A stretch of DNA of 64,000 nucleotides from Sorghum bicolor (Eukaryota > Streptophyta > Magnoliopsida > Poales > Poaceae), in assembly GCF_000003195.3 (NCBI RefSeq), contig NC_012872.2, positions 24,361,258-24,425,257 on the forward strand, given 5' to 3'. Shown one piece after another: positions 1-50,911 of this stretch. The translations under genes were made by a program, and so were the position numbers. Below the pieces are notes generated by a model, which saw only the letters and a program-made list of their open reading frames with translations, was not told where the DNA came from and made no database searches. Each line of letters starts with the position of its first letter. Positions within the stretch are counted from its first letter, which is position 1.

Positions 1-3000
1 CCGTTCCAAGCCACCTGAGCACCCCAGCAGCTCCGCCGTGAGCCCCGCCACCGATTGCGCCCCCAAACACACGCTCTACCCTACCGTAACCCCAACCCGA
101 GCTGTTTCCTTCCACAACTCCGGCCGAGCGCCGCCGCGAGCACGCCACCGTGGCCAGCGTCACTCCGCGCCTCTTCGCTGCTGATTCTTGCTTCGTTGAA
201 GTCACGGTGAGCTACCGATGCTCTTACGCCGCTTACCTTGCGCTCTACTCGCTTGGAACGACCGGTGTGTGCCCGGCCGAGGCGGCCACCCGCCATGCTC
301 GTAGCCGCAGGGGCTAGGATGGGGGAGAGCGAGTGTAAAGAAGGTCTGCAGGTGCGCAAGGGACCGGGGAAACTAGCGCGCCTCACTGCGGAAGTCGGGA
401 GCTCACCGGCGTTGAGCCTGAGCTCGCCGGAGCCGTGGCGGGAGGTAGGCGACGCTCCTGACGGGCGGGTCCCGCCCGTCAGTGTCCGCGTGAGGGAGAA
501 GGAGGGGCCGCAGCGCACGCGGTCCGCGCGGGAGAACTCGCGGGCCGTCTTGGGCCGGGTCCGAGCAGGCCGCCAGCACTGCACTGTGCACTTTTTCTTT
601 TTCCTTTTTGTTTAAAAATGTTTGATATTTGAAGTTAAATATTGAATTGTGTAGTGGTCCAAAAATAGTGAAACTTTTTGGATAGGTTCCAGGAAAGGTA
701 TAGAGCCTAGGAAAAATATTAGAACTTATTTCTCTGATAGTTTGCATGTCTATAAAAATTGGCTCTTTAATTAGTGAATAAAACTTCTAGGAATTTTAGT
801 AATTTATTAGGAGGTCCAAAAATCACCAAAAATTGTGGAGAGCCTCTGAGTGGTATTCCCTGGCTCCACACAAAATTTGGTGGCATTTGGATAATGTTTG
901 ATTAAAATATTAATAAACCCTTATTTAGCATTTAAATAATAATTCCAAAATAATTAAATAGTGATTATTTAGATCCTCATAATTAGGGTTGAGTGATTTT
1001 GGATTGTGTGATAACCTGAGGTCATTAACCCTAATGACCTTTGGCATTTAATTATTGTTTAGCCCTAATGCTTAATTACTGTCATTAGTAATTAATTAAG
1101 AGTTAATTAAGGTAAATAGGATTAATAATTAGTTAATTCAGGATAATTAGAAATTAAAAGGAGTTTTAATTTACTAATGCAATCTCTTGGGTAAAAACAG
1201 TAAATTGTTAAACAACTTTATTTAGTGACAATTCTGTATTGCATTAAAAAGGCAAATCGTACTTAATTCGGTCCATCTTGCATAATTGCCATACGCATAT
1301 CATAAGCATTCATCATTTCGCGTATAGTGTCCGTGACCGAAGGAGCGCCCGTTGAACCGAACCCCGAGGTCGGTGCTCCGTTCGAGGAAGTCGGATCCGA
1401 GACTTGGGAAGTCTCCGAGGGTCCCTCTCTGCCCTGCAACCAAGGCAAGCCCCGGATGCATTAACCCCTCCTTAGATGTTTTAAATCTTTTATCACTTAT
1501 GAATTGAAAATGCTGCATTATGTAGTTAAGAATTGGCTTAACCTACTTGTTGCATTTACTACCTTGATATCTATTATCCTGTCCTTGACACCTGTTTTAT
1601 TTTAAAACTGCGTAGCGATGCTTAACCCTGCTACTAGATAGGTTTTTAAACAAGAAAGTTTGAAGGGTTGTTGTGGGATGCACTTATGGTCAATGATGTT
1701 TTAACTTGAGACCGGTCGGTGGACTTGCTTTAAGAATGGAGTCTTAAAGTAGTGTCTCCAACTGTGTCGGTTAAGGACCGGTCCGTTGATGGCCTGCTGG
1801 GTTGAGAATTTATAGTACTAGCCACTTGCCTTCGGTAAGCCCGGTCTTATGATCCCTCGACGCGAACAGCTACTCGCGCACTGGGAGTGGAAAGATGGCG
1901 AGAGTAGTATGTACCCACCTTACGGATCTGAGATGACCGGAAAACATCTAGATCGGCTGTAGGATGGTGGAGTACTGTGCTCTCGGGTGCCGCGAACCTG
2001 GTCAGATTTGGGGAGAGCTTGATTTGGGTTGACATATGCAAGATTTGGTTCTACATATGTCGGGTGGTTAGGAACTCCAGCTGGATTGCTAAGCGATTCG
2101 AATCGTCGTTGCTCCCCGATTGGGAGACTCAATTCCTTCGACCCTCATCGTAGTTAAATATGCAACTAAGTGATAAAATGAGAAAGGGGAAAATGTCTTA
2201 TGAGGTTCGGATCCCAATTCCCGGACTCATAGCGACATGAAGCTATGGCCATCGATGAATAATACTTAATGATAGGACTAGGAACTCACGGATTCGTCTG
2301 TGGGGAACAACCAGTTAGACTATCCTCGAATTCCTCTGCCTCTGCGAGGGAGGAATTCGGGGTAAAACTTGAAAATAAGGATGCACTACTAGTAAGCTTT
2401 ACGCAAAACACTTTGGCTCCTTGCTCAGCCACCCCTTGTCTACCCTAAGCCTGCATCCCTAAATTCTCCTCTTTTCCCGTCGGATAAGTCTTGTTGAGTA
2501 CTCCCGTACTCAGGGTTTTATAACCCCTGTTGCAGGTGAAGCTCAGGAGCCGACTTGTTTCGGACCCTGTTGTGTGACCATCGTCGAGGTTGACGACGAA
2601 GAAGAATGAGCGCGACCCATGGGCAGGGTCTGTAAATTTGTTCTGTCTGTACTAAAGTCTCTGTTGCTCCGCTGGACCAGGCTTGTAATAACACTCTACT
2701 ATTTGGAAGAACTCCTTTTATAAATTAAGTTATGTAATACTTCCGCTGTTTCACTCTGAAAGGTTATTTTGGTCTTGTGTCGTTGAGTTACTGCTTTATC
2801 TTCGCAATGAATGATCCTGGTGTTAAGGTGGCCACTTGCTATCCTGTAAGGGCGAGAAGAAGCAGTTCTCGTTGTTTGACCATTACCAGTGGTCAGGACG
2901 AGCCAGCTTGGTACGCCACAGGTAACAGTGGAATGAGCGCCCAGCAATGCTCATCGGACTTCTAAAGTGGGAGGACTCCCGGCATCACCGTCAGAGGTCC

Positions 3001-3053
3001 TTAGGACAATGGCAGGTGTCGGTGGGCCCAAACACTTAGGAGGTTCTGCCACA
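1..3053 (+). repeat. Chromovirus LTR 1, 3' three quarters
   Basis: This aligns end to end with 20396-23449 of LTR 3. I found about four substitutions and one single-base indel, so the two are nearly identical. The left part (to about 590) is GC-rich and full of spurious ORFs on both strands; the rest is AT-rich. No credible gene is present. It ends GCCACA two bases before the primer site. It contains the conserved hairpin at 2495-2512. Confidence 0.93.
2495..2512 (+). promoter_or_regulatory. Conserved LTR hairpin TGAGTAC-loop-GTACTCA
   Basis: A perfect 7-bp inverted repeat with a 4-base loop, followed by a GGGTTT-rich block and TGTTGCAGGT. The same stem recurs in LTR 2 (12795-12812), in LTR 3 (22890-22907), and with a different six-base loop in the diverged solo LTR F (39080-39099). 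Keeping the stem while the loop changes suggests an RNA or DNA structure under selection. Its role (polyadenylation, leader structure, dimerisation) is unknown. Confidence 0.6.
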
Positions 3054-3055
3054 GC

Positions 3056-3067
3056 TGGTATCAGAGC
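3056..3067 (+). other. Primer binding site, initiator Met tRNA type
   Basis: TGGTATCAGAGC lies two bases after the LTR end. It matches the complement of the 3' end of plant initiator methionine tRNA used by most chromoviruses. The same site is at 13356-13367 in the second copy. Confidence 0.9.
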
Positions 3068-3290: not shown

Positions 3291-3424
3291 GTAAGTTCGT
3301 GCATGCATCATGATGTATTAACTGGATAAGTTCCTTCCTCCTTGTTGGGTTGGGCGAATAGAATCAATCCTATTCTTGCTAACCTTTAAGGTCTCTCTTA
3401 CTAATCTAAACTTACCCTCTACAG
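3291..3424 (+). other. Candidate intron in the chromovirus leader
   Basis: A strong donor (ATC/GTAAGT at 3291), a plant-like branch site (TGCTAAC near 3378-3384) and a pyrimidine-rich acceptor (CCCTCTACAG ending at 3424) define a 134-nt intron. The acceptor lies one base before the ATG of the extra ORF at 3426. The same layout is at 13591-13724 in copy 2. This is read from consensus only; no transcript is available here. Confidence 0.55.
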
Positions 3425-3425
3425 G

Positions 3426-4079
3426 ATGGCTCGTCAGAAGCAGACCCCGCGTAAGCGGACCGGTCCAAAAGGAGTTCCCCGACATCAGCTAGCTCCACGC
3501 AGTGATCAAGCCAGTAGTAGTCGTTCACCGCCTCAGCAGGAGGTGGACAGGTTGTCCGCCGAGTTGACTGAGGTGATGAGAGAGAGAATGTACAACGTTA
3601 TGGAGATTGGCAAACTTAAAGCTCAACTGGCCAAAGAAAAACAAGCTACAGAAAATTGTGAAGCTATGTTGTCCCGGATGGTGGAGGAGCGGAATGCAGC
3701 CATTGCCCGAGAGGAAGAAGCTAGGAGCACCCATAGGCATGAGCTAACTAGGATGAACGCAAAGTTGGGCAAGGCAAAGTATCTTAAGGATTTGTATGTG
3801 AAGATGGCGGCCACGGTCACCGCACAACGGGACGTCGCGTGGCAACGAGAGGACCAGCTCCAGCTGGAGAAACTGGAGCTGGCACATCACTTGGATACAG
3901 TCAATGACTTGGCTATGCAGTATCGTGATATTGCATTTAATCTGTATCATCAACTCCACCCACCTCCCGGCGAAGGAGAAATGGATACAGATGGCGAGTT
4001 GGCAGACGGTGGAGAACCCGATCCAGGCCTCAGTGATGAAGAGGAGTCCGACCCCGATGACCACAACCCAGGGGGGTAA
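3426..4079 (+). CDS. Extra ORF upstream of gag with histone H3-like N-terminus, coiled coil and acidic tail
   Basis: A 217-residue protein of unknown function. Residues 1-30 are basic and begin MARQKQTPRKRTGPK, which lines up without gaps with the start of the histone H3 tail. Residues about 35-170 are rich in heptad-like Leu/Glu/Lys/Arg and probably form a coiled coil. Residues about 180-217 are strongly acidic (Glu/Asp/Gly) and end in a DEEESDPDD-type tail. The start is the first ATG after a candidate splice acceptor. It lies 265 bases before the gag ATG in another frame and is not part of gag-pol. I recall extra ORFs before gag in some rice chromoviruses of this clade, but not an H3-like tail. 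It is unchanged in copy 2 (13726-14379), where gag-pol has decayed. Confidence 0.8.
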   Translation: MARQKQTPRKRTGPKGVPRHQLAPRSDQASSSRSPPQQEVDRLSAELTEVMRERMYNVMEIGKLKAQLAKEKQATENCEAMLSRMVEERNAAIAREEEARSTHRHELTRMNAKLGKAKYLKDLYVKMAATVTAQRDVAWQREDQLQLEKLELAHHLDTVNDLAMQYRDIAFNLYHQLHPPPGEGEMDTDGELADGGEPDPGLSDEEESDPDDHNPGG

Positions 4080-4344
4080 TCAAGATGATGGCAATGACGA
4101 CCCGGGCTACAGCTCTGGCCACACCGATTAGTTCGGTGAAACCGGGGGCAACGTCGTTGTAGGGGTCTTAGTTTACCGTAGTGGGGTTCGGGTTTGTAAT
4201 ATAAGTTTTCTTTCGGTTTGAGAAGTTGAACCTGTTTACTCTTGGTGTGTTGAACTAATGTTTAATAAGTGAATGAAAGAATGTAAGATATGTTCTGTGT
4301 TATGAATTTTACGTGGTAACAGGTATCTACGATTCTTGTAACAG
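4080..4344 (+). other. Spacer between extra ORF and gag, with candidate splice acceptor at 4344
   Basis: This is noncoding and T-rich. It holds a possible branch site (GAACTAATG near 4252-4260), and TTGTAACAG ends exactly at 4344, directly abutting the gag ATG. A transcript spliced from the leader donor at 3291 to 4344 would skip the extra ORF and put gag-pol first. This is inferred from consensus sequence only. Confidence 0.45.
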
Positions 4345-7300
4345 ATGCCGATGCGTACTCGCGGATCCGATGGGGCTGGGACATCCCAGGGAGGGGATGA
4401 TATCCCCAACCCTCCACCTGCTCCACCTTCTTTGGCTGACGCCATTGCTGTCCTGCTAAGTGCCACAACTGACAACGCTCGCTTGCTGCGCGAGCTAGCA
4501 CAGCGTCAAACACACCCTGCTCCAAACTTCAGGGCACCGCGCAACGGGGACGGAGAGGCTCGGTATGTGGACTTCACCGAGACCAGGCCCCCGGTGTTCA
4601 CTAAGGCCGATGAGCCTTTAGAAGCGGATGACTGGCTCCGAACTATGGAGCATAAGTTCAGTTTGATTCAGTGTTCAGAAACTCAGAAACCCTTATTTGC
4701 AGCTCAGCAGCTTCGGGGAGCTGCAGGTGCATGGTGGGAGAACTTCTTAGCTATTCAAGCTCCCGGACACCAAGTCACTTGGACTGAATTTAGGGACGCG
4801 TTCCGCGCCCACTACATCCCCGAAGGGCTCATGGCCATGAAGGCCGAAGAGTTTCTCGCCTTGCTGCAAGGCGATAAAAGTGTTATGGAATACGTGGCAA
4901 GGTTTAATCATCTCTCTCAATATGCCACGGATCATGTGAACACTGACAGAAAGAGGAAAGCCTGTTTCATGCGTGGTCTAAATACTAAACTTCAGACCAT
5001 GATGACCACTTGCCAAAATGCTACTTTCTATGAGGCGGTAAATATTGCTATCGCCTCAGAGGAAAAGAATAGGAAACATAAGGAAGCCAAGAAGAAGGCT
5101 GCTTCCTCTTCTTTCTTTGGTCGCGGTCAAAAGCGCCAGAGGATCATTTATCATCCACAGGGCCACGGACGTTTCCAAACGCCGTTACCTTATCGTGGTC
5201 CTTTCTCCCCTCCACAGTACAGACCCGGGCAGCAGGTATATTCTCGACCTACTGCCATCGCTTTTGCACCACGCCAGCCGAACGCCCCGGGTGTTCGCCC
5301 TACTGCTCCGCCCAGCCACAATTACCCTTGCTTCAATTGTGGTAAACCTGGGCATTTCTCTAAAGAGTGCCCTTTTCCCCGTCAAACCAACCCTACCTTT
5401 CCAAGGCCACCTATGGGCCAACCCCAGCCGGGTCAGTTCAGAACTGGGGTTCAAAAAGGGCAACAGATACAAAAGGGTAGACCGGGAAAGAAGACAGGGC
5501 AAGTCTTCCATACTGAAGTGGAGACAATTCCAGAGGGTGAACCAGTGATGATGGGTACGTTTCCTGTTGCGAAGCATCCTGCTTTAATGCTCTTTGATTC
5601 TGGTGCATCCCATACATTTATCAATCGCACCTTTGTGTTAAAGCATGGCATACCTATTGGGGAAACACAAGATCATTTTTATATACAGTCGCCAGGAGGA
5701 CGGCTGATGTCTAAAGAAATGGTTCACCAAGTACCCATCGAATTTGGTGGGCACAATTTTCCTACTAGCATGATTGTTCTTAAGGACCAAGAAATTGATG
5801 TCATCTTAGGCATGAACTGGATGGCGCAACGAGGGGTTGTGCTAGACACTTTGCACCGAACCATTAAAATCCCATTGCCCAATGAGAATTCTTATTTGCT
5901 AATCCAATTAGTTACTCCCAAACGGACAATTGGGCAAGTTCATGCCGCAAATGTGTCTGAAGTTAAAGATATCCCGGTAGTTCGAGATTTCCCGGATGTA
6001 TTTCCTGAAGACTTACCAGGTCTGCCTCCGGACCGGGATGTACAATTCAGTATAGAATTGAAACCAGGAACGGCCCCAATATCTCGAAGGGCCTACAGAA
6101 TGGCACCGAAAGAGCTGGCTGAATTAAAAACCCAATTACAAGAGTTGTTGCAGAAGGGTTTTATTCAGCCCAGTTCTTCTCCATGGGGTTGCCCAGCCTT
6201 GTTTGTGAAGAAGAAAGATCAGACATTAAGGCTGTGTGTCGACTATCGTCCTCTAAATGAGGTGACGATTAAGAACAAGTACCCTTTGCCCCGCATTGAC
6301 TTATTGTTTGACCAGCTAGCTGGGGCCAAAGTGTTCTCAAAAATTGATTTGAGATCAGGGTACCACCAAATTAAAATTAGGCCGGAAGATGTGCCCAAGA
6401 CTGCTTTCACAACCCGCTACGGGCTGTATGAATACTTGGTGATGTCTTTTGGGTTGACTAACGCACCGGCCCATTTTATGTACCTGATGAACTCTGTCTT
6501 CATGCCAGAACTAGACAAATTTGTGGTCGTCTTCATCGATGACATCTTGATTTACTCCAAAACTAAGAAGGAACATGCTGAACACTTGAGAATCGTGCTG
6601 ACCCGTCTCAGGGAGCATCAGCTATATGCCAAGTTCAGCAAATGTGAGTTCTGGCTGGACAAAGTCCATTTCCTGGGTCATGTATTATCAGCGGAAGGAG
6701 TCGCTGTAGACCCAGGCAAGGTAGAAGATGTGTTGAATTGGAAACCCCCGACTACGGTACACGAGGTCCGTAGTTTTCTGGGCATGGCGGGATATTACCG
6801 TCGTTTCATCCCGGACTTTTCCAGAGTCGCCAAACCAATCACAACCTTGCTCAAAAGTCAAACAAAATTTGTTTGGTCACCCCAATGTGAGCAAGCCTTT
6901 CAAACTCTGAAAAGGTTGTTGACAACTGCACCTGTCCTAGCCCAGCCAGATATTGAAAAACCCTTTGATGTATATTGTGACGCATCAGGGATCGGGTTAG
7001 GCTGTGTGCTGATGCAGGAGGGTCGCGTAATTGCATATGCTTCCAGACAACTCAAACCTCATGAAGAGAATTACCCGACCCATGATCTCGAACTAGCCGC
7101 CGTAGTACATGCATTAAAGATCTGGCGTCATTATTTGTTGGGAAACACATGTCATCTATATACAGATCACAAAAGCTTGAAGTATATCTTTACTCAAGCT
7201 GAGCTTAATATGCGCCAGCGAAGGTGGCTAGAACTAATTAAAGATTACGACCTTGAGGTGCATTATCACCCTGGCAAGGCAAATGTAGTGGCGGATGCCC

Positions 7301-8877
7301 TCAGTCGTAAGGCTCACTGTAATTGTTTAACAGTGACGCCTAGGGATATAACTTTGTGCCAAGAGCTAGAGAACTTGGGAATAGAAATGATTTCCCAAGG
7401 AAGCCTTTCCAATCTAAAGATTGATTTCAATCTCGAGGCTCAAATCATAAAGGCACAAAAAGAAAACAAAGGCATGAGACATCTTAAAGAGAAGGTTTCT
7501 AATAGAGCACCCACAGACTTTAAGGTGGATGATGCGGGAGTAGTCTGGTTTAAGAACCGGTTAGTGGTTCCAAAGGTACCTGAGCTACGTCAGCAAATCC
7601 TGGATGAAGCTCATACCACGAGGTATTCCATTCATCCGGGAAGCAATAAGATGTATCAGGACCTGAAGCAAAGGTTTTGGTGGACAAAAATGAAGATAGA
7701 AATAGCTCGCTATGTGGCCCAATGTGACACCTGTCGAAAGGTCAAAGCCATTCATCTCAAATCCGCTGGGGAGTTGCAACCTTTGCCTATCCCCGCATGG
7801 AAATGGGATGACATAAGTATGGATTTCATAGTAGGATTGCCCAAGACGGCCAAGGGCTTTGATTCCATTTGGGTCATAGTAGATCGTCTCACCAAAACAG
7901 CACATTTTCTGCCGGTAAAGCTATTGTATCCTGCCTCCACCTATGCTAAGATTTATTTCGACCGTATTCTAAGTCTGCATGGGGTTCCAAAGACAATAGT
8001 GTCAGATAGAGGCACACAATTTGTCTCCCAGTTCTGGAAATGTTTACATGAGTCCCTGGGCACTAAGCTTTTATACAGCACAGCCTACCACCCTCAAACT
8101 GGTGGGCAAACTGAAAGGGTAAATCAAACCCTAGAAGATCTATTAAGATCTTGTGCCCTGAATTTTCCAGATAAGTGGGATGACTGCTTGCCTCTAGCAG
8201 AATTTTCCTACAATAATAGCTATCAAGAGAGTATCAAAATGGCTCCCTTTGAGGCACTGTATGGTCGCCGATGTCGAACTCCGTTACACTGGTCGGAACC
8301 TGGAGAAAGATGGTTCTTCGGAGTTGACTTAGTGAAAGAGACTGAAAACAAAGTGAAACAAATCCAAAATAACTTGAAAGTTGCTCAGTCCCGACAGAAA
8401 AGTTACGTTGATAAAAGACGTCGACCATTAAAGTTCGCCACAGGTGATCATGTGTATTTGAAAGTATCCCCAATGAAAGGAGTAAATCGTTTTGGTGTTA
8501 AAGGCAAGTTAGCGCCTCGTTACATTGGTCCATTTCCAATTATTGACCGATGTGGGCAAGTCGCTTACCGCCTTAAATTGCCCGAACGATTATCCGGGGT
8601 ACATAATGTGTTCCATGTGTCTCAACTGAAAAAGTGTCTTCGGGTACCAGATCGAGTTCAAGATATTGAAGATGTAAAGCTTGAACCAGATCTAACTTAT
8701 TCGGAATATCCTATCCGAGTACTGGATCAAAAAGCTAGAGTTACTCGAAGGACAACCACCAAATGGTATAAAGTACAATGGAGCCAGCACTCTGACGAGG
8801 AAGCCACCTGGGAATCTGAAGATTACTTGCTAGAGAATTTTCCTGAATTCCATGCTTCCCTTCAGGATAGCATATGA
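4345..8877 (+). CDS. gag-pol: Intact chromovirus gag-pol polyprotein
   Basis: One open frame of 1510 residues with no stop or frameshift. In order: the gag capsid region (about 95-250); a CCHC zinc knuckle (329-342, [14 protein letters not shown]) that binds RNA; an aspartic protease with a DSGAS active site (D418); a reverse transcriptase with FIDD catalytic residues (730-733); RNase H starting with D879; and an integrase with an HHCC zinc finger (HTTRYSIH...CDTC), catalytic D1160, D1221 and E1257 (D-35-E spacing). A C-terminal chromodomain spans about 1452-1500, with the first aromatic cage residue (Tyr of YPIRVLD) and the Trp of VQW present; the third cage position looks like His. The polyprotein should assemble virus-like particles, copy the RNA and insert the cDNA, with the chromodomain biasing target choice. 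Gag and pol are in one frame, as is usual in this clade. Confidence 0.95.
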
Positions 8878-9085: not shown

Positions 9086-12000
9086 TGTAACATCCCTGAT
9101 GTTACGGTTACAAAAAAACGGATCATGTCATCATAAGCATTGCAAAGCATAATTGTTAAAGCACCTTAGTATGCATCAACTTAAAATAAGTTTACTTTGA
9201 TTGCTTGAGCTTAGGGAAGTAGAGTGTGCTTTTGTGGTGTGTTGTTGCTTGTGTGGTTGCTAAAACCCTAGGGTGGAAGTTTTTCGAGAAGCAGGGGGGG
9301 AAACCCTGATTTCTGGATCCTAGATTTGTCCCCTTTTGCTTAAGTCAAAAACTAAGCAAAATTTGAGGTTGAGTTCAAAAGCAAAGTTGTAGCTCTTGGC
9401 AAGATGTACAACTTTGGTGTTTTGAGTTTTTGAAGTTTCAATACAAAATTCAAAGTAATTTTGAAAATACAGATTTCCAGAAAGTGTCCCCTTTTCCAAC
9501 TTAAATCCCCAATTCAAAATCCATTTGGAATTTTGAAAAGTGGTCAACATGAAAGTTGTAGAGCACAAAAAGTTGAGCAACTTTCATGTTGCGAGTTTTT
9601 CAAGTTGTTATGCAAAATCAAAAGTAATTTTGGAAATTCTGTTTTGCCCCAATTCAAAAATTTGGAATTTCTTTGATTTGAGTTTGATTTTCAAACTGTT
9701 TGGCAAAATTACCCTTGATCCATTGAGAATCAGCTTGGGACACCTAAATATGATTTGTAGCTTACAAAATTTGGCACAACTTTTGTTTTGGTGGAAATTT
9801 GACTTTAGTTCAAATTTTGGTCGGATTTCACAAAAAGACAAACTGAGTGGATGAGGCCGGCTACAGTGATCGGCAGGGGGGGGTGCTCTGCCGCCGGGGC
9901 AGAACCGCCTCCGCGCGCGACGCCACGCAGCTGGCCACGCAGCTGCTTGCTGCTGTGCTCCGTGTGGACATCCTCATCCGCATCGCAAGCGCCGTCGTGT
10001 GGATAAAGCCTCGGTCGGCCGGGACATTCTTTTCTTTTCCTTGAACTTCATCGCCGACGAGCTCCCTGCGCCTCTCCAATTCGCCTCACTCGCTGCCGTT
10101 CCAAGCCACCTGAGCACCCCAGCAGCTCCGCCGTGAGCCCCGCCACCGATTGCGCCCCCAAACACACGCTCTACCCTACCGTAACCCCAACCCGAGCTGT
10201 TTCCTTCCACAACTCCGGCCGAGCGCCGCCGCGAGCACGCCACCGTGGCCAGCGTCACTCCGCGCCTCTTCGCTGCTGATTCTTGCTTCGTTGAAGTCAC
10301 GGTGAGCTACCGATGCTCTTACGCCGCTTACCTTGCGCTCTACTCGCTTGGAACGACCGGTGTGTGCCCGGCCGAGGCGGCCACCCGCCATGCTCGTAGC
10401 CGCAGGGGCTAGGATGGGGGAGAGCGAGTGTAAAGAAGGTCTGCAGGTGCGCAAGGGACCGGGGAAACTAGCGCGCCTCACTGCGGAAGTCGGGAGCTCA
10501 CCGGCGTTGAGCCTGAGCTCGCCGGAGCCGTGGCCTTTTTAAATCCTGACGGGCGGGTCCCGCCCGTCAGTGTCCGCGTGAGGGAGAAGGAGGGGCCGCA
10601 GCGCACGCGGTCCGCGCGGGAGAACTCGCGGGCCGTCTTGGGCCGGGTCCGAGCAGGCCGCCAGCACTGCACAGTGCACTTTTTCTTTTTCCTTTTTGTT
10701 TAAAAATGTTTGATATTTGAAGTTAAATATTGAATTGTGTAGTGGTCCAAAAATAGTGAAACTTTTTGGATAGGTTCCAGGAAAGGTATAGAGCCTAGGA
10801 AAAATATTAGAACTTATTTCTCTGATAGTTTGCATGTCTATAAAAATTGGCTCTTTAATTAGTGAATAAAACTTCTAGGAATTTTAGTAATTTATTAGGA
10901 GGTCCAAAAATCACCAAAAATTGTGGAGAGCCTCTGAGTGGTATTCACTGGCTCCAGACAAAATTTGGTGGCATTTGGATAATGTTTGATTAAAATATTA
11001 ATAAACCCTTATTTAGCATTTAAATAATAATTCCAAAATAATTAAATAGTGATTATTTAGATCCTCATAATTAGGGTTGAGTGATTTTGGATTGTGTGAT
11101 AACCTGAGGTCATTAACCCTAATGACCTTTGGCATTTAATTATTGTTTAGCCCTAATGCTTAATTACTGTCATTAGTAATGCCAACCGTGCTTTCTACCA
11201 ACTCCGCCAACCCCAGACGGGAATATTGATTTAGATTTATAGCCGCACCTGAGCCCGCAACTGCTGCCTCTACTCCGCCTACTTCTTGTGCCGACTTCGC
11301 CAGCCTCGCGGGGTACCGATTTCCTCCTGCTTTGTGTGCGTGCCATTGACTCCTTTAATGGGTCGAAACCTACTTTGTTCTTTTTTTTCGTCTAATTAAG
11401 AGTTAATTAAGGTAAATAGGATTAATAATTAGTTAATTCAGGATAATTAGAAATTAAAAGGAGTTTTAATTTACTAATGCAATCTCTTGGGTAAAAACAG
11501 TAATTTGTTAAACAACTTTATTTAGTGACAATTCTGTATTGCATTAAAAAGGCAAATCGTACTTAATTCGGTCCATCTTGCATAATTGCCATACGCATAT
11601 CATAAGCATTCATCATTTCGCGTATAGTGTCCGTGACCGAAGGAGCGCCCGTTGAACCGAACCCCGAGGTCGGTGCTCCGTTCGAGGAAGTCGGATCCGA
11701 GACTTGGGAAGTCTCCGAGGGTCCCTCTCTGCCCTGCAACCAAGGCAAGCCCCGGATGCATTAACCCCTCCTTAGATGTTTTAAATCTTTTATCACTTAT
11801 GAATTGAAAATGCTGCATTATGTAGTTAAGAATTGGCTTAACCTACTTGTTGCATTTACTACCTTGATATCTATTATCCTGTCCTTGACACCTGTTTTAT
11901 TTTAAAACTGCGTAGCGATGCTTAACCCTGCTACTAGATAGGTTTTTAAACAAGAAAGTTTGAAGGGTTGTTGTGGGATGCACTTATGGTCAATGATGTT

Positions 12001-13353
12001 TTAACTTGAGACCGGTCGGTGGACTTGCTTTAAGAATGGAGTCTTAAAGTAGTGTCTCCAACTGTGTCGGTTAAGGACCGGTCCGTTGATGGCCTGCTGG
12101 GTTGAGAATTTATAGTACTAGCCACTTGCCTTCGGTAAGCCCGGTCTTATGATCCCTCGACGCGAACAGCTACTCGCGCACTGGGAGTGGAAAGATGGCG
12201 AGAGTAGTATGTACCCACCTTACGGATCTGAGATGACCGGAAAACATCTAGATCGGCTGTAGGATGGTGGAGTACTGTGCTCTCGGGTGCCGCGAACCTG
12301 GTCAGATTTGGGGAGAGCTTGATTTGGGTTGACATATGCAAGATTTGGTTCTACATATGTCGGGTGGTTAGGAACTCCAGCTGGATTGCTAAGCGATTCG
12401 AATCGTCGTTGCTCCCCGATTGGGAGACTCAATTCCTTCGACCCTCATCGTAGTTAAATATGCAACTAAGTGATAAAATGAGAAAGGGGAAAATGTCTTA
12501 TGAGGTTCGGATCCCAATTCCCGGACTCATAGCGACATGAAGCTATGGCCATCGATGAATAATACTTAATGATAGGACTAGGGACTCACGGATTCGTCTA
12601 TGGGGAACAACCAGTTAGACTATCCTCGAATTCCTCTGCCTCTGCGAGGGAGGAATTCGGGGTAAAACTTGAAAATAAGGATGCACTACTAGTAAGCTTT
12701 ACGCAAAACACTTTGGCTCCTTGCTCAGCCACCCCTTGTCTACCCTAAGCCTGCATCCCTAAATTCTCCTCTTTTCCCGTCGGATAAGTCTTGTTGAGTA
12801 CTCCCGTACTCAGGGTTTCAATACCCCTGTTGCAGGTGAAGCTCAGGAGCCGACTTGTTTCGGACCCTGTTGTGTGACCGTCGTCGAGGTTGACGACGAA
12901 GAAGAGTGAGCGCGACCCATGGGCAGGGTCTGTAAATTTGTTCTGTCTGTACTAAAGTCTCTGTTGCTCCGCTGGACCAGGCTTGTAATAACACTCTACA
13001 TTTGGAAGAACTCCTTTTATAAATTAAGTTATGTAATACTTCCGCTGTTTCACTCTGAAAGGTTATTTTGGACTTGTGTCGTTGAGTTACTGCTTTATCT
13101 TCGCAACGAATGATCCTGGTGTTAAGGTGGCCACTTGCTATCCTGTAAGGGCGAGAAGAAGCAGTTCTCGTTGTTTGACCATTACCAGTGGTCAGGACGA
13201 GCCAGCTTGGTACGCCACAGGTAACAGTGGAATGAGCGCCCAGCAATGCTCATCGGACTTCTAAAAGTGGGAGGACTCCCGGCATCACCGTCAGAGGTCC
13301 TTAGGACAATGGCAGGTGTCGGTGGGCCCAAACACTTAGGAGGTTCTGCCACA
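9086..13353 (+). repeat. Chromovirus LTR 2 (shared middle LTR, 4268 bp)
   Basis: It serves as 3' LTR of copy 1 and 5' LTR of copy 2: polypurine tract before it, primer site after it. It is about 200 bp longer than LTR 3 because of a 212-bp insert. At about 10533-10544 a block present in LTRs 1 and 3 is replaced by a short T/A-rich filler. Private substitutions (for example near 10945, 12583, 12602, 12820 and 13073) set it apart from LTRs 1 and 3. It has an AT-rich start with inverted repeats, a GC-rich block (about 9850-10675), then an AT-rich remainder. A weak TATAAAAA lies at 10839-10846; I cannot place the transcription start. Confidence 0.92.
11181..11392. other. 212-bp insert unique to the middle LTR
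   Basis: LTRs 1 and 3 read straight through GTAAT/TAATTAAG, while LTR 2 has 212 bases between these halves. No target duplication is visible, because removing the insert restores the other copies exactly. The insert is moderately GC-rich with a T-run near its right end. It has no LTR, terminal inverted repeat or ORF that I recognise. Its origin is unknown. Confidence 0.8.
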
Positions 13354-13725: not shown

Positions 13726-14379
13726 ATGGCTCGTCAGAAGCAGACCCCGCGTAAGCGGACCGGTCCAAAAGGAGTTCCCCGACATCAGCTAGCTCCACGC
13801 AGTGATCAAGCCAGTAGTAGTCGTTCACCGCCTCAGCAGGAGGTGGACAGGTTGTCCGCCGAGTTGACTGAGGTGATGAGAGAGAGAATGTACAACGTTA
13901 TGGAGATTGGCAAACTTAAAGCTCAACTGGCCAAAGAAAAACAAGCTACAGAAAATTGTGAAGCTATGTTGTCCCGGATGGTGGAGGAGCGGAATGCAGC
14001 CATTGCCCGAGAGGAAGAAGCTAGGAGCACCCATAGGCATGAGCTAACTAGGATGAACGCAAAGTTGGGCAAGGCAAAGTATCTTAAGGATTTGTATGTG
14101 AAGATGGCGGCCACGGTCACCGCACAACGGGACGTCGCGTGGCAACGAGAGGACCAGCTCCAGCTGGAGAAACTGGAGCTGGCACATCACTTGGATACAG
14201 TCAATGACTTGGCTATGCAGTATCGTGATATTGCATTTAATCTGTATCATCAACTCCACCCACCTCCCGGCGAAGGAGAAATGGATACAGATGGCGAGTT
14301 GGCAGACGGTGGAGAACCCGATCCAGGCCTCAGTGATGAAGAGGAGTCCGACCCCGATGACCACAACCCAGGGGGGTAA
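13726..14379 (+). CDS. Extra ORF with H3-like N-terminus, copy 2
   Basis: The 217-residue translation is identical to copy 1 (3426-4079), including the H3-like start and acidic end. The adjoining gag-pol of this copy has acquired two stops and several missense changes over a length seven times greater, so identity here may simply reflect short time rather than selection. The spacer to gag (14380-14644) differs from copy 1 by a few bases near 14444-14476 and keeps the acceptor ending at 14644. Confidence 0.8.
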   Translation: MARQKQTPRKRTGPKGVPRHQLAPRSDQASSSRSPPQQEVDRLSAELTEVMRERMYNVMEIGKLKAQLAKEKQATENCEAMLSRMVEERNAAIAREEEARSTHRHELTRMNAKLGKAKYLKDLYVKMAATVTAQRDVAWQREDQLQLEKLELAHHLDTVNDLAMQYRDIAFNLYHQLHPPPGEGEMDTDGELADGGEPDPGLSDEEESDPDDHNPGG

Positions 14380-19382: not shown

Positions 19383-22300
19383 TGTAACATCCCTGATGTT
19401 ACGGTTACAAAAAAAAACGGATCATGTCATCATAAGCATTGCAAAGCATAATTGTTAAAGCACCTTAGTATGCATCAACTTAAAATAAGTTTACTTTGAT
19501 TGCTTGAGCTTAGGGAAGTAGAGTGTGCTTTTGTGGTGTGTTGTTGCTTGTGTGGTTGCTAAAACCCTAGGGTGGAAGTTTTCCGAGAAGCAGGGGGGAA
19601 AACCCTGATTTCTGGATCCTAGATTTGTCCCCTTTTGCTTAAGTCAAAAACTAAGCAAAATTTGAGGTTGAGTTCAAAAGCAAAGTTGTAGCTCTTGGCA
19701 AGATGTACAACTTTGGTGTTTTGAGTTTTTGAAGTTTCAATACAAAATTCAAAGTAATTTTGAAAATACAGATTTCCAGAAAGTGTCCCCTTTTCCAACT
19801 TAAATCCCCAATTCAAAATCCATTTGGAATTTTGAAAAGTGGTCAACATGAAAGTTGTAGAGCACAAAAAGTTGAGCAACTTTCATGTTGCGAGTTTTTC
19901 AAGTTGTTATGCAAAATCAAAAGTAATTTTGGAAATTCTGTTTTGCCCCAATTCAAAAATTTGGAATTTCTTTGATTTGAGTTTGATTTTCAAACTATTT
20001 GGCAAAATTACCCTTGATCCATTGAGAATCAGCTTGGGACACCTAAATATGATTTGTAGCTTACAAAATTTGGCACAACTTTTGTTCTGGTGGAAATTTG
20101 ACTTTAGTTCAAATTTTGGTCGGATTTCACAAAAAGACAAACTGAGTGGATGAGGCCGGCTACAGTGATCGGCAGGGGGGGGGTGCTCTGCCGCCGGGGC
20201 AGAACCGCCTCCGCGCGCGACGCCACGCAGCTGGCCACGCAGCTGCTTGCTGCTGTGCTCCGTGTGGACATCCTCATCCGCATCGCAAGCGCCGTCGTGT
20301 GGATAAAGCCTCGGTCGGCCGGGACATTCTTTTCTTTTCCTTGAACTTCATCGCCGACGAGCTCCCTGCGCCTCTCCAATTCGCCTCACTCGCTGCCGTT
20401 CCAAGCCACCTGAGCACCCCAGCAGCTCCGCCGTGAGCCCCGCCACCGATTGCGCCCCCAAACACACGCTCTACCCTACCGTAACCCCAACCCGAGCTGT
20501 TTCCTTCCACAACTCCGGCCGAGCGCCGCCGCGAGCACGCCACCGTGGCCAGCGTCACTCCGCGCCTCTTCGCTGCTGATTCTTGCTTCGTTGAAGTCAC
20601 GGTGAGCTACCGATGCTCTTACGCCGCTTACCTTGCGCTCTACTCGCTTGGAACGACCGGTGTGTGCCCGGCCGAGGCGGCCACCCGCCATGCTCGTAGC
20701 CGCAGGGGCTAGGATGGGGGAGAGCGAGTGTAAAGAAGGTCTGCAGGTGCGCAAGGGACCGGGGAAACTAGCGCGCCTCACTGCGGAAGTCGGGAGCTCA
20801 CCGGCGTTGAGCCTGAGCTCGCCGGAGCCGTGGCGGGAGGTAGGCGACGCTCCTGACGGGCGGGTCCCGCCCGTCAGTGTCCGCGTGAGGGAGAAGGAGG
20901 GGCCGCAGCGCACGCGGTCCGCGCGGGAGAACTCGCGGGCCGTCTTGGGCCGGGTCCGAGCAGGCCGCCAGCACTGCACAGTGCACTTTTTCTTTTTCCT
21001 TTTTGTTTAAAAATGTTTGATATTTGAAGTTAAATATTGAATTGTGTAGTGGTCCAAAAATAGTGAAACTTTTTGGATAGGTTCCAGGAAAGGTATAGAG
21101 CCTAGGAAAAATATTAGAACTTATTTCTCTGATAGTTTGCATGTCTATAAAAATTGGCTCTTTAATTAGTGAATAAAACTTCTAGGAATTTTAGTAATTT
21201 ATTAGGAGGTCCAAAAATCACCAAAAATTGTGGAGAGCCTCTGAGTGGTATTCCCTGGCTCCACACAAAATTTGGTGGCATTTGGATAATGTTTGATTAA
21301 AATATTAATAAACCCTTATTTAGCATTTAAATAATAATTCCAAAATAATTAAATAGTGATTATTTAGATCCTCATAATTAGGGTTGAGTGATTTTGGATT
21401 GTGTGATAACCTGAGGTCATTAACCCTAATGACCTTTGGCATTTAATTATTGTTTAGCCCTAATGCTTAATTACTGTCATTAGTAATTAATTAAGAGTTA
21501 ATTAAGGTAAATAGGATTAATAATTAGTTAATTCAGGATAATTAGAAATTAAAAGGAGTTTTAATTTACTAATGCAATCTCTTGGGTAAAAACAGTAAAT
21601 TGTTAAACAACTTTATTTAGTGACAATTCTGTATTGCATTAAAAAGGCAAATCGTACTTAATTCGGTCCATCTTGCATAATTGCCATACGCATATCATAA
21701 GCATTCATCATTTCGCGTATAGTGTCCGTGACCGAAGGAGCGCCCGTTGAACCGAACCCCGAGGTCGGTGCTCCGTTCGAGGAAGTCGGATCCGAGACTT
21801 GGGAAGTCTCCGAGGGTCCCTCTCTGCCCTGCAACCAAGGCAAGCCCCGGATGCATTAACCCCTCCTTAGATGTTTTAAATCTTTTATCACTTATGAATT
21901 GAAAATGCTGCATTATGTAGTTAAGAATTGGGTTAACCTACTTGTTGCATTTACTACCTTGATATCTATTATCCTGTCCTTGACACCTGTTTTATTTTAA
22001 AACTGCGTAGCGATGCTTAACCCTGCTACTAGATAGGTTTTTAAACAAGAAAGTTTGAAGGGTTGTTGTGGGATGCACTTATGGTCAATGATGTTTTAAC
22101 TTGAGACCGGTCGGTGGACTTGCTTTAAGAATGGAGTCTTAAAGTAGTGTCTCCAACTGTGTCGGTTAAGGACCGGTCCGTTGATGGCCTGCTGGGTTGA
22201 GAATTTATAGTACTAGCCACTTGCCTTCGGTAAGCCCGGTCTTATGATCCCTCGACGCGAACAGCTACTCGCGCACTGGGAGTGGAAAGATGGCGAGAGT

Positions 22301-23449
22301 AGTATGTACCCACCTTACGGATCTGAGATGACCGGAAAACATCTAGATCGGCTGTAGGATGGTGGAGTACTGTGCTCTCGGGTGCCGCGAACCTGGTCAG
22401 ATTTGGGGAGAGCTTGATTTGGGTTGACATATGCAAGATTTGGTTCTACATATGTCGGGTGGTTAGGAACTCCAGCTGGATTGCTAAGCGATTCGAATCG
22501 TCGTTGCTCCCCGATTGGGAGACTCAATTCCTTCGACCCTCATCGTAGTTAAATATGCAACTAAGTGATAAAATGAGAAAGGGGAAAATGTCTTATGAGG
22601 TTCGGATCCCAATTCCCGGACTCATAGCGACATGAAGCTATGGCCATCGATGAATAATACTTAATGATAGGACTAGGAACTCACGGATTCGTCTGTGGGG
22701 AACAACCAGTTAGACTATCCTCGAATTCCTCTGCCTCTGCGAGGGAGGAATTCGGGGTAAAACTTGAAAATAAGGATGCACTACTAGTAAGCTTTACGCA
22801 AAACACTTTGGCTCCTTGCTCAGCCACCCCTTGTCTACCCTAAGCCTGCATCCCTAAATTCTCCTCTTTTCCCGTCGGATAAGTCTTGTTGAGTACTCCC
22901 GTACTCAGGGTTTTATAACCCCTGTTGCAGGTGAAGCTCAGGAGCCGACTTGTTTCGGACCCTGTTGTGTGACCGTCGTCGAGGTTGACGACGAAGAAGA
23001 ATGAGCGCGACCCATGGGCAGGGTCTGTAAATTTGTTCTGTCTGTACTAAAGTCTCTGTTGCTCCGCTGGACCAGGCTTGTAATAACACTCTACTATTTG
23101 GAAGAACTCCTTTTATAAATTAAGTTATGTAATACTTCCGCTGTTTCACTCTGAAAGGTTATTTTGGTCTTGTGTCGTTGAGTTACTGCTTTATCTTCGC
23201 AACGAATGATCCTGGTGTTAAGGTGGCCACTTGCTATCCTGTAAGGGCGAGAAGAAGCAGTTCTCGTTGTTTGACCATTACCAGTGGTCAGGACGAGCCA
23301 GCTTGGTACGCCACAGGTAACAGTGGAATGAGCGCCCAGCAATGCTCATCGGACTTCTAAAAGTGGGAGGACTCCCGGCATCACCGTCAGAGGTCCTTAG
23401 GACAATGGCAGGTGTCGGTGGGCCCAAACACTTAGGAGGTTCTGCCACA
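19383..23449 (+). repeat. Chromovirus LTR 3 (complete, 4067 bp)
   Basis: Starts TGTAACATCCC and ends GCCACA, where the sequence switches abruptly to the RT gene of element D. It lacks the 212-bp insert of LTR 2 and matches LTR 1 far better than LTR 2. The first 750 bases carry inverted repeats such as CATGAAAGTTG/CAACTTTCATG (19848-19888). A GC-rich block spans about 20150-20985. ORFs on both strands in that block are compositional and not convincing genes. Confidence 0.94.
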
Positions 23450-26329
23450 GATTCGAGCCGGTTCCAAGCCAGTGAAGCAACGGTTGCGCCGATTCGACGA
23501 GGAGAAGCACAAGATCATTGGCGAGGAGGTCCACAAGCTTTTGACGGCCGGATTCATCAAGGAGGTTCATCATCCCAACTGGTTAGCGAACCCTGTATTA
23601 GTTAAGAAAAAGATTGGGAAAATGAGGATGTGTGTCGATTATACAAGTCTAAATAAAGCATGTCCGAAAGTTCCCTTTCCATTACCACGTATTGACCAGA
23701 TTGTCGATTCTACTGCGGGATGTGAAACCCTTTCTTTCCTCGATGCATATTCTGGTTACCATCAAATAAAAATGAAAGAGTCCGACCAGCTCGCGACCTC
23801 TTTCATCACGCCTTTTGGGATGTATTGCTACGTAACCATGCCGTTTGGGCTTTGAAACACGTTAGCCACGTACCAACGTTGCATGCTCCACGTATTTGGC
23901 GAACACATAGGGTCGACAGTCGAGGCCTACGTCGACGACATTGTCGTCAAATCAAAGCAGCGAGGGGACCTGATCCAGGACCTCGAGATCGCTTTTAGCT
24001 GCTTACGCACCAACCAGATCAAGCTCAATCCCGAGAAATGCATCTTTGGTGTGCCTCGAGGCATGCTCTTGGGTTACAATGTATCCCAGCGCGGCATCGA
24101 GGCCAACCCCGAGAAAGTCTCGGCCATCACGAGAATGGGGCCGATCCGGGACATCAAGGGTGTACAAAGAGTCACGGGATGCCTGGCGGCTCTGAGCCGT
24201 TTCATCTCGAGACTAGGGAAAAGGCGTTACCACTGTACCGACTTCTGAAGAAGGTCGAGCGCTTTTCTTGGACCCCCAAGGCTGAGGAAGCTCTCGAAAA
24301 ACTGAAGAAAACACTGACCTCAGCACCGGTCTTGGTCCCGCCTCAACCTGCAGAACCACTGCTCCTTTACATTGCGTCGACGACCCAGGTCGTCAGTGCA
24401 GCGGTGGTGGTCGAGAGGCAGGAGGAGGGGCATGCGCTGCCAGTCCAGAGGCCAGTCTATTTCGTCAGCGAAGTGCTTTCGGAGACCAAGGTACGTTACC
24501 CCCAAATCCAGAAGCTGATCTACGCTGTAATCCTCGCCCGCCGCAAGCTGCAGCACTACTTCCTCGGCCACCCCATCACGGTGGTCTCGTCTTTCCCTTT
24601 GGGCGAGATAATCCAGAGCAAGGAGGCCACGGGAAGAATAGCTAAATGGTCAGTCGAACTCATGAGTGAGACTCTCACTTACGCGCCTCGCAAGGCCATC
24701 AAATCACAAGCCCTGGTGGACTTCATCACGGAATGGACAGACTCCCAGCTCCCCCCGACCCAGGTCCAGGCGGAACTGTGGACGATGTATTTCGACGGGT
24801 CACTCATGAAAACGGGGGCCGGGGCTGGCCTGTTGTTCATCTCACCCTTGGGCGTCCATATGAGGTATGTCATCAGGATTCACTTTGCCGCATCCAACAA
24901 TGTCGCAGAATACGAGGCCCTCGTCAACGGTCTCAAGATTGCCATCGAGCTAGGAGTCTGACGCCTCGACGTCCGAGGTGACTCCCAACTCGTCATCGAC
25001 CAGGTGATGAAGACTTCGAGCTGCCACGACCCGAAAATGGAGGCGTACTGCAAAGAAGTCCGTCGACTCGAGGACAAGTTCCATGGCCTCGAGCTCGTCC
25101 ACATCGCCCGACGCTACAACGAAGCAGCTGACGAACTCGCCAAAATCGCATCGACCCGAGGCACGGTACCACCTGACACGCTCTCGAGAGATCTCCACGA
25201 ACCATCCGTCGACTTGGGCTCGGGGGCTGGCGTCGATGCCGCTCCCGCCCAGCCAATCGACACCATCTACACGCTGCTGATGGCAGCAGAGGTGATGGAG
25301 GTGGAACAGCGACCCGGTCGACCGTTCGACTGGCGCACACCGTTCCTCGACTGCCTAATCCGCTGCGAGCTGCCAGAAGATCGATCCGAGGCCCGCCGTA
25401 TCGCTCGACGAGCCAAGTCATACGTGATTTACGGCGAAGGCAATGAGCTATACCGACGAAGCCCGACGGGGGTCTTGCAGCGTTGCATCACTGTGGAAGA
25501 AGGCCGGAAACTACTCGAGGACCTACACTCGGGGGCTTGTGGCCACCATGCTGCTCTACGGACCCTCGTATGGACCGCTTTCCGACAAGGTTTCGACTAG
25601 CCGACGGCCGTAGCAGATGCCATCGAGCTCGTACGCTCATGTCATGGATGCCAGTTTTACGCCAAACAGACGCATCTTCCCGCCCACATTCTTCAGATGA
25701 TCCCCATCACGTGGCCATTTGCGGTGTGGGGACTCGACTTAGTGGGGCCCTTGCAAAAAGTGAAAGGAGGGTACACCCATTTGCTGGTGGCCATCGACAA
25801 ATTCTCCAAATGGATCGAGGCTCGACCCATCACCAACATCCGCTTCGAGCAAGCCGTCCTTTTCTTCACCGACATCATACATCGATTCGGAATCCCTAAC
25901 GTGATCATCACCGACAACGGCACCCAGTTCACCGGCAAAAAGTTCTTGGACTTCTGCGATCAGCATCACATCCGTGTGAACTGGTCCGCGGTGACTCACC
26001 CTCGAACTAACGGCCAGGTTGAGCGTGCCAACGGCATGATCTTGCAGGGGCTCAAACCAAGGATCTACAATCGCCTAAAGAAATTCGGCAAGAAGTGGGT
26101 CGACGAACTTTCCTCGGTCTTATGGAGTTTGAGGACGACGCCAAGCCGGGCCACCAAATACACCCCGTTCTTCATGGTCTATGGCTCTGAGGCCGTGCTC
26201 CCAACGGACCTCGAGTATGGATCTCCTCGACTCAAGGCATACAACGATCAGTCGAATAAGGAAGCTCAAGAGAATGCTGTCGACCAGCTTGAGGAGGCTC
26301 GAGACATGGCCCTCCTCAACTCTGCCAGA
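23450..26329 (+). pseudogene. pol: Element D pol: RT, RNase H, archaeal RNase H, integrase (broken)
   Basis: It opens in the RT thumb-side region (VKQRLRRF...), with catalytic YVDD at 23928-23939. TGA at 23853-23855 interrupts the fingers/palm just before NA-ATYQR. A frameshift near 24215 moves to the RNase H frame (24238-24961). The Tat-type second RNase H begins with FDGS near 24791 and is broken by TGA at 24959-24961 (Arg codon). The next stretch runs to TAG at 25598-25600, where a conserved Trp (GF-WPT) is expected. The integrase then continues (catalytic D in WGLDLVGP, ITDNGTQF, NGQVERANG) until element E interrupts it at 26329. Most stops look like C-to-T or G-to-A changes, as in methylated silent DNA. 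Confidence 0.9.
26325..26329. repeat. Target site duplication CCAGA of element E (left copy)
   Basis: CCAGA at 26325-26329 repeats exactly at 33960-33964. Deleting E with one copy joins the integrase frame of D (...NSAR/YQQKLRRY), which confirms the insertion boundaries. Confidence 0.95.
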
Positions 26330-27349
26330 TGTTGACACTTGCTAACACCACTTGAATACTAGGTTGTCATCCCCAGCATGGCACTAGAGTGTACTATGGT
26401 ATTTATACGCACACAGATAATCCGCAAGCGCACGGATACCGTTGAAGCTTTTACCCGGTTAAAGGTTTTATCGTATCCACAGGGAAACGAGAGAACCAAC
26501 TACGCTCTAACTTAACCAAGATAGATAGATAGGTGTAAATAGGAAAGATGATAGAATCGAATAAGAACAATATTAAAGGTAAGATAACAGTGAGTGATAA
26601 TATGGGAATAGAGAATAGAGCAATTCTAGTATATGGGTGATGGTAGCAGAATAGAGAGGATAACTATGGTTTCTCTACTTCAAAGGGGTATGTCTATGTC
26701 TGGGACGAACCACGTGATAAGAGTACACCACAAAGGATGCTTATCCATAGGCCGACCTCTCCTCTAATCCTCCTTCGCTCTCCATCTCGCTACTATCTAG
26801 ATCTACTCTAGTTTAGAGAAGAGAGGAGAGCTCTCATCTCTAAACCCTAGCTTTTGCTCTGTCTATGAATAATGAATAATGATCAAGGGGTGTGTCTCCT
26901 CCAGGGGCCAGGGGGTCTGGTTTTATAGTCCCCTCAAGTGAACCTGGGCCGTCGGATCAAACCGACATTGATTGAACGGTTATTCTTGATCCTTTAGGTC
27001 GGTGGAGCATAATCCGCGAGATTGAGCGTGATTGGCCGAAAAAGGTGGGCGGGCGCCCTAAGGACTTGGGCGGGCGCCCTGTCCCTGACTCCGTTCGGTC
27101 TCCGCTTCCTTCCCATGGCTTCTGGAGTCTTCTAGATGTAAGATAATTGCGCGGCACGTTGATATCTCTATGTAATCCCGACGTGTGGGCCTTTCTTCCT
27201 TATTTCCTGATAACCCCCTGCAGAAATAGACAAACACCAAAACTCGTGGAATTCTGTCAGATAAAACCCTAAGTCTTGATGTTGATTTCATTTGGATCCT
27301 TTTCTTTGTTTATTTGATAGTTAAATTTGATACTTAAGGACCGTCAACA
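26330..27349 (-). repeat. Element E 3' LTR (1020 bp, internal deletion)
   Basis: Nearly identical to the other LTR (32616-33959) but missing 322 bp between two AGGCCGA repeats (joined at 26749-26755). It contains two GGGCGGGCGCCCT direct repeats near 27047-27081. No gene is seen. Confidence 0.93.
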
Positions 27350-32460: not shown

Positions 32461-32589
32461 AATAGACCAGAGATCAAGGATTAGATAAGAAGAAAGAATA
32501 GCAGAGATGAGGCAAAGGATAAAAGGAATTTTTTTTATTTATTTTTTATAAAATGATTAAACTAGTTCGTAGTCAACTCAGCAACCGTT

Positions 32590-32607
32590 TCCCCGGCAAC
32601 GGCGCCA
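32590..32607 (-). other. Element E primer binding site, tRNA-Asp type
   Basis: Read on minus, TGGCGCCGTTGCCGGGGA begins 8 bases inside the LTR end. It is the usual primer site of Athila-like elements and fixes E's orientation. Confidence 0.88.
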
Positions 32608-32615
32608 AAAATGCT

Positions 32616-50722: not shown

Positions 50723-50911
50723 AGCATTTTTGGCGCCGTTCTCGGGGAAACGGTTGCTGAGTTGACTACAAACTAGCTTAATCATTTTCTAAAAAAATAA
50801 AAATATATATATATACTTTTCCTTTTATCTTTTGCCTTATCTCTGCTATTCTTTCTTCTTATCTAATCCTTGATCTCTGGTCTATCATGAATTCAAACAT
50901 GTCTATCTATG
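50723..50911 (+). pseudogene. gag: Element A primer site, leader and first gag codons
   Basis: The primer site TGGCGCCGTTCTCGGGGA (50731-50748) differs at two bases from the tRNA-Asp type seen in E. The leader carries a TA repeat (50809-50818). ATG 50887 starts MNSNMSIY, cut by B after CTATG (50907-50911). Confidence 0.88.

Follow-up and report, generated by a model that had tools for sequence, protein, structure and literature searches.

Plants silence retrotransposons through H3K9 methylation and the proteins that read it, and yet abundant chromoviruses escape for long enough to spread. The window, the whole 64-kb stretch of DNA analysed, contains an element with an extra open reading frame, ORF0, located 5' of gag-pol. 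The original prediction, made from the DNA letters, held that the N-terminus of the ORF0 protein mimics the tail of histone H3. Can such a tail be distinguished from a chance basic N-terminus, and what might it do for the element?

Histone mimicry is known in viruses, as short motifs (PMC10208167), and no description was found of a long H3 tail on a retrotransposon ORF0. A literature search for 'ARTKQTARKSTG' together with 'retrotransposon' returned no paper. In the titles and abstract beginnings of the listed papers on histone mimics and transposons, no prior report of an H3-like tail on a transposon was found, and an earlier notice is possible. The word 'histone' was absent from the main text of two studies of comparable ORFs (PMC3485330, PMC11728184) and of a review (PMC7264820), and occurred once, about chromodomains, in a survey of plant LTR elements (PMC6317226).

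The element and the arrangement of ORF0

A single Ty3/gypsy element, arrayed in tandem as LTR-internal-LTR-internal-LTR and repeating every ~10.3 kb, occupied positions 1–23449 of the window (Table 1), as would be expected from recombination between LTRs. The compared LTR stretches were 98.5–99.8% identical and the two internal regions 99.4% identical; the copies are probably young because of this near identity. No substitution separated the two copies of ORF0 over their 654 bases. An insertion of 212 bases in LTR 2 (11181–11392) was absent from LTR 1 and LTR 3. The primer binding site was presumably of the tRNA-Met type.

Table 1. Positions of the element's features in the window
Feature	Position	Strand	Remarks
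LTR 1, truncated by window start	1..3053	+	99.8% identical to 20396-23450; ends ...CCACA
Primer binding site TGGTATCAGAGC	3056..3067	+	Sequence
ORF0 copy 1	3426..4079	+	217 aa, stop ends at 4079; extra ORF 5' of gag-pol
H3-tail-like N-terminus of ORF0, Met + 25 residues	3426..3503	+	H3 1-23 register, one-residue insertion
One long predicted helix, ORF0 residues 36-177	3531..3956	+	AlphaFold2
Acidic C-terminus of ORF0	3957..4076	+	40 residues: 15 D/E, zero K/R
gag-pol ORF copy 1, 1510 aa, uninterrupted	4345..8877	+	Pfam domains
Chromodomain, pol residues 1459-1501	8719..8847	+	PF00385 E 9e-6
LTR 2, TGTAACATCC...CCACA, 4268 bases	9086..13353	+	212-base insertion at 11181-11392
ORF0 copy 2	13726..14379	+	654 bases, identical to copy 1
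LTR 3, 4067 bases	19383..23449	+	Complete

The gag-pol ORF of copy 2 was interrupted. That of copy 1 contained, in order, the Pfam domains gag, zinc knuckle, protease, RT, RNase H, integrase, and chromodomain. The chromodomain, which had been predicted at the end of pol, was found there by PF00385 and had weak chromodomain matches in the PDB (best E 0.007). It contained the sequence EEATWESE and the W, corresponding to the type II pattern EEXTWEXE with W45 retained. Type II chromodomains are recognized by the EEXTWEXE motif, the retention of W45, and the loss of Y24 and Y48 (PMC3350952). As judged by domain order and the type II chromodomain, the element is a Tekay-type (Tekay/Del) chromovirus.

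An ORF0 likewise situated between the 5' LTR and gag-pol, in elements with LTRs of ~3 kb or more, was reported for RIRE3, RIRE8, Retrosat2, and FRetro3 of rice (PMC3485330). The layout of the Retrosat2/RIRE3/RIRE8 group was matched here in the place of ORF0 and the length of the LTRs (4268 and 4067 bases), and the rice-group ORF0 evolves faster than pol (PMC3485330), as ORF0 does here. The LTRs of Retrosat2 and RIRE8 have the ends TGTCACACCC ... GGGCGTGACA (PMC3485330), whereas the ends here were TGTAACATCC ... TCTGCCACA and thus did not coincide, with 8 of 10 positions identical at the 5' end. ORF0s of this kind were reported only from grasses, with an origin given as unknown and with modelling that pointed to hydrolases, acyltransferases, or transporters (PMC3485330). 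The restriction to grasses makes a grass the likely host of the present element. The mean Ka of 0.26 and Ks of 1.65 in the Retrosat2 group (PMC3485330) indicate that these ORF0s are under constraint. The present ORF0 is likely to be a homologue of the RIRE3/Retrosat2 ORF0s. Additional 5' ORFs of Tekay elements from sunflower and grasses share the same place, helices, disorder, and predicted nuclear localization; the sunflower protein, of 400 aa, has no amino-acid similarity to the grass ones (PMC11728184).

The ATG of ORF0 (...CTCTACAG/GATGG; 3395–3428) and that of gag-pol (...TTGTAACAG/ATGCC; 4310–4347) were each located directly 3' of a splice-acceptor-like CAG site, and these two sites ranked 10th and 13th of 51 by pyrimidine content alone. 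Seven ATGs were present in the leader 5' of ORF0 and eight between ORF0 and gag-pol. The arrangement is suggestive only: alternative splicing may choose whether ORF0 or gag-pol is translated.

Elsewhere in the window, a plant mobile domain (PF10536) was found in a 419-aa ORF at 60298–61557 on the minus strand, close to Ty3/gypsy protease and pol ORFs at 53538–58534. A 556-aa ORF at 42607–44277, also on the minus strand, contained Transposase_28 (PF04195, putative gypsy-type transposon). A second repeat was present in both orientations at 26330–27349, 32436–33959, 49383–50911, and 62633–63942 with 90–100% identity, one pair of copies being identical over 601 bases, which suggests a recently active family.

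Match of the ORF0 tail to H3 and its conservation

The ORF0 protein began with M-ARQKQTPRKRTGPKGVPRHQLAPR (start as read, MARQKQTPRKRTGPKGVPRHQLAPRSDQ). On recounting, 10 of the 14 residues after Met were identical to H3 1–14 without a gap, as originally stated, and the PRxQLA match after a one-residue insertion agreed with H3 at five of six positions. Overall, 15 of 20 compared positions were identical, a count that omits H3 A15 and the inserted residue.

When the first 40 residues of ORF0 were searched with phmmer against the PDB (177,635 distinct sequences), the best match was H3, and all of the best 60 of 105 matches were of H3 type. The E value of this lone sequence was only 0.02, modest by itself, and the match had been selected by the earlier reader out of a whole window; both points would suit a chance resemblance of a basic N-terminus. 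However, a profile of 12 ORF0 tails, hand-picked for diversity from 49 distinct tails, matched H3 at E 1.6e-7, and all of the best 60 of its 199 PDB matches were again of H3 type. In the comparison with shuffled sequences that the original prediction had proposed, the H3 match of the tail stood above every composition shuffle: the local alignment score was 65, against a mean of 22.1 and a maximum of 48 in 20,000 composition shuffles (Gumbel P 2.7e-6). None of 300,000 tail shuffles equalled the 10 in-register identities (best 8), and neither did any of 300,000 stricter shuffles confined to the 14 residues (best 9).

Homologues of ORF0 were collected by a protein search (61 at E<=0.01) and by a 17-sequence profile (335, the comparisons using those among 120 listed), and the relatives compared were 132 distinct proteins, or 133 with the window's own. 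The H3 register, the presence of which in related ORF0s had been set as a test, was in place in 55 of the 132; with the window's own, 56 of 133 proteins were tailed in register, and their tails comprised 49 distinct sequences. Tailed proteins matched the motif at no fewer than 16 of 26 positions and untailed proteins at no more than 5, and because of this clean split the counts are independent of the threshold. Among the 77 of 132 homologues that were tail-less, 66 began beyond reference position 27, that is, downstream of the tail, four began inside the tail and kept part of the remainder, and five began at its end. The other two, P0086 and P0126, had unrelated residues at the tail's place, which counts against the mimic. 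The predicted start of a tail-less protein may reflect a frameshift, a contig edge, or a true loss. Since most untailed relatives start past the tail, the H3 register is general among the relatives that could show it. The tail Met was internal to the predicted protein in P0047, P0123, and P0127.

Some relatives were nearer to H3 than the window's ORF0, for example MARTKKTPRKSTGPKGVPRHQLAP. The tails of P0080 (ARTKKTPRKSTGPKGVPRHQLAP) and P0055 (ARTKITARKSTGPHGVPRHQLAP) were identical to H3 at 16 of 20 positions, and those of P0127 and P0049 started with ARTKQ, as H3 does. When 18 ORF0s hand-picked from the 56 tailed ones were aligned, the mean pairwise identity (153 pairs) was 0.77 for the tail, in contrast with 0.38 for the body. 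The tail mean was still 0.74 in the 126 pairs with a body identity below 0.45, and in only three of the 153 pairs was the tail not better conserved than the body. The best other non-overlapping stretch of 26 columns had an identity of 0.49. In these alignments the tail is shown to be the most conserved part of ORF0, even where the bodies share ~30% identity.

A chance match was rejected on the basis of this contrast between tail and body, the conservation of the resemblance in relatives, where it was often stronger, the profile E value, and the shuffles, and such a match is scarcely credible. At the level of sequence, the H3 resemblance of the tail is confirmed as more than chance and proves stronger than originally described, and the retention of an H3-tail mimic by this retrotransposon family is well supported.

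The individual positions differed widely in their conservation among the 49 distinct tails. Position 1 was A in 42, G in five, V in one, and T in one. Methionine aminopeptidase accepts A, G, V, and T after Met, and because such a small residue followed Met in all 49 tails, the predicted removal of Met and exposure of a free H3-like end are plausible. Residues K4 (48), T6 (47), R8 (43), and K9 (48) were kept in most tails, T3 was found in 40, and position 2 was R in 19, K in 21, and H in five. Position 5, with Q in 10, was the freest of the first 12. Position 7 was A in 24, P in 24, and T in one, followed by S10 in 36, T11 in 37, and G12 in 44. G13 was replaced by P in 47, and the K14 position was divided between K and H, with 24 tails each. 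In the second half, GV stood for A15, P16 (48), R17 (39), Q19 (45), L20 (48), and A21 (47) were kept, and K18 was replaced by H in 48, T22 by P in 41, and K23 by R in 42, with K in two. Thus, the K4 and K9 lysines of H3 were near-invariant, the K18 and K23 lysines were almost always replaced, and K14 was present in half of the tails. We take K4 and K9 to be methylation sites of H3, and K14, K18, and K23 to be acetylation sites.

The original concern that A7P and S10R could weaken K9-type recognition applied to the window's ORF0, which has P7 and R10, but not to the family as a whole, in which A7 (24/49) and S10 (36/49) were common. The window's element is accordingly among the less H3-like members at these two positions. 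Some single departures from R (to H, C, or Q) may stem from methylated CpG sites that decayed after a copy had died. Scans of viral contigs and genome contigs confirmed no DNA of ORF0 relatives, and a region search with the P0127 tail gave one candidate, P0127 itself.

Predicted structure of ORF0

The AlphaFold2 model of ORF0, based on 22 aligned sequences, had a mean pLDDT of 80.6 and a pTM of 0.40. The predicted helix comprised 142 residues with pLDDT values of 95–98 over most of its length. Residues 1–40 were of low confidence (mean pLDDT 43–74 per block of ten), the tail containing a helix of at most three residues, and the acidic end was also of low confidence. The ends were opposite in charge, with nine K/R and one D/E in residues 1–35 versus no K/R and 15 D/E in the last 40. 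In the model, the helix would keep the tail far away from the acidic end.

The remainder of ORF0 was unlike histones, as had been claimed: no Pfam histone domain was found at E values up to 1, the model was one continuous helix, and a histone fold elsewhere in ORF0 was rejected on both grounds. Residues 1–23 of H3 share a common register with ORF0, whereas the histone fold is replaced by one helix and an acidic end. A coiled-coil oligomer was dropped: the hydrophobic period of the helix peaked at 3.50, a peak whose power was equalled in 423 of 2000 shuffles. A Pfam match to chorismate mutase (E 0.0015, under the family cut-off) was regarded as a helix artefact.

The C-terminus of ORF0 was 17 residues shorter than that of the homologue P0001, apparently through a frameshift near the 3' end of ORF0, as read by eye. 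A loose pattern that we take to be SUMO-interaction-like was present in the last 60 residues of 66 of 132 relatives (LVYFSDEDE, LVMIDESD), a count that may include chance matches. The C-termini of P0052, P0059, and P0080 were examples, P0059 ending with VINISDDEE and VIYISDD; the window's ORF0 and P0001 had no match.

Possible origin, partners, and function of the tail

The tail was most likely derived from a host H3 gene, because the match extends over the two halves of the tail and is broken only by one small insertion. The 5' end of the gene would have been captured and then fused to an unrelated helical protein, making ORF0 a chromovirus accessory protein that presents an imitation of H3's free N-terminus (H3 1–23) at the tip of a long helical rod. 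The mimic may have been retained because host proteins that grip the K4/K9 segment of H3 also grip ORF0. We give an even chance to the proposal that the tail engages host proteins reading or writing H3 K4/K9.

The best-fitting candidates would be the K4me0 and K9me2 readers AGDP1/ADCP1 and SHH1, together with the K9-writing SUVH enzymes. AGD12 of AGDP1 uses A1, R2, K4me0, A7, R8, and K9me2 of H3, with no specific contact to T3, Q5, T6, or S10, while the side chains of R2, T3, T6, and R8 stabilize the shape of the bound peptide (PMC6208443). SHH1 also holds K4me0 and K9me2 in two pockets (PMC6208443), and AGD34 of ADCP1 contacts R2, K4, and K9me2 but not A7, R8, or S10 (PMC6318295). The conservation footprint of ORF0 resembles that of these plant readers. 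Against the fit, P7 in half of the tails would clash with A7-using readers, including AGD12 of AGDP1, and R2 was K in 21 and H in five of 49 tails. Furthermore, the segment GVPRHQLAPRN was conserved to the same degree as the K4/K9 segment, and binding by a K4/K9 reader would not by itself account for this.

In the main rival explanation, the tail acts as a nuclear import signal of the H3 type that borrows the importins of H3 and carries ORF0, and perhaps the pre-integration complex, into the nucleus. Residues 1–28 of H3 suffice to bring a reporter into the nucleus and bind many importins (PMC12933015), and Kap-beta2 binds H3 11–19 continuously (PMC5677370), a segment that the family conserves. 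The nine K/R within the first 35 residues of ORF0 and the predicted nuclear location of proteins from 5' extra ORFs in other Tekay elements (PMC11728184) point in the same direction. However, a signal based on charge alone would not need T6, G12, P16, L20, and A21, and the lysines held by Kap123, K14 and K23 (PMC5677370), were kept in only 24 and two of 49 tails. A two-lysine Kap123 signal as the conserved constraint was rejected for this mismatch with the lysines actually kept, although the effect of K14R in yeast was no more than minor (PMC5677370) and R may therefore serve in place of lysine. We regard the import signal as rather unlikely.

The conservation of the second half, GVPRHQLAPRN, past the reader footprint would also suit a basic tail for RNA or DNA binding or for Gag docking, in which case the H3 likeness would be left over from capture or would arise by coincidence from the basic composition. 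The basic character and the low predicted order of the tail are in keeping with such a role. However, shuffles of the same composition fell short of the H3 match, the conserved T, G, P, Q, L, and A positions do not set charge, and the basic H3 positions 14 and 18 were H in 24 and 48 of 49 tails, respectively. Such a role is unlikely.

The original prediction also proposed ORF0 as a ligand of the element's own integrase chromodomain, and methylated ORF0 docked there could regulate or target integration. Both partners are encoded by the same element. However, A7P, present in half of the tails, is expected to disturb the pairing of H3 with chromodomains. When the chromodomain was aligned with Clr4, with the methyl-lysine cage positions that we assume for Clr4, H occupied the third cage position and the first was ambiguous. 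In type II chromodomains, such as those of Tekay elements, the first aromatic of the cage is missing and usually the third as well, and reportedly no partner had been identified for them (PMC3350952, PMC6317226). An Arabidopsis type II chromodomain co-localized with TFL2 (PMC3350952), so some chromatin ligand for this type should exist. With the cage incomplete, the element's own chromodomain was set aside as a partner and is very unlikely.

For engagement of host H3 readers and writers, the preferred mechanism is that H3K9 enzymes of the plant itself would methylate the K9-equivalent of ORF0. The methylated, non-nucleosomal ORF0 could then titrate or redirect the K4me0/K9me2 silencing machinery during replication of the element. 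That the tail was captured from H3 and kept as a soluble epigenetic decoy against silencing is possible, and we propose it tentatively. Disarming of the H3K9 pathway has a precedent, since the geminivirus protein TrAP inhibits the K9 writer KYP (PMC4606454). TrAP, like the proposed decoy, is an element-encoded counter to plant H3K9 methylation; it binds the catalytic domain of KYP (SUVH4), and its abstract makes no mention of H3 mimicry (PMC4606454). Viral H3-tail mimics, namely influenza NS1 (ARSK), SARS-CoV-2 ORF8 (ARKS), HDV antigen, and adenovirus protein VII, likewise show short H3-like motifs on proteins that are foreign to the host and encounter its chromatin factors (PMC10208167). These mimics extend over 4–5 residues (PMC10208167), whereas that of ORF0 extends over ~22 residues from the N-terminus and is carried by a plant retrotransposon.

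For the Tekay extra ORFs, which had no established function in the parts of the literature examined, the conserved H3 tail provides a direct, testable function. The position-wise record of kept and lost H3 residues amounts to a natural mutagenesis of H3 recognition in plants. If the decoy reading is true, the ORF0 tail would be, to our knowledge, the first case of a transposable element that mimics a histone tail.
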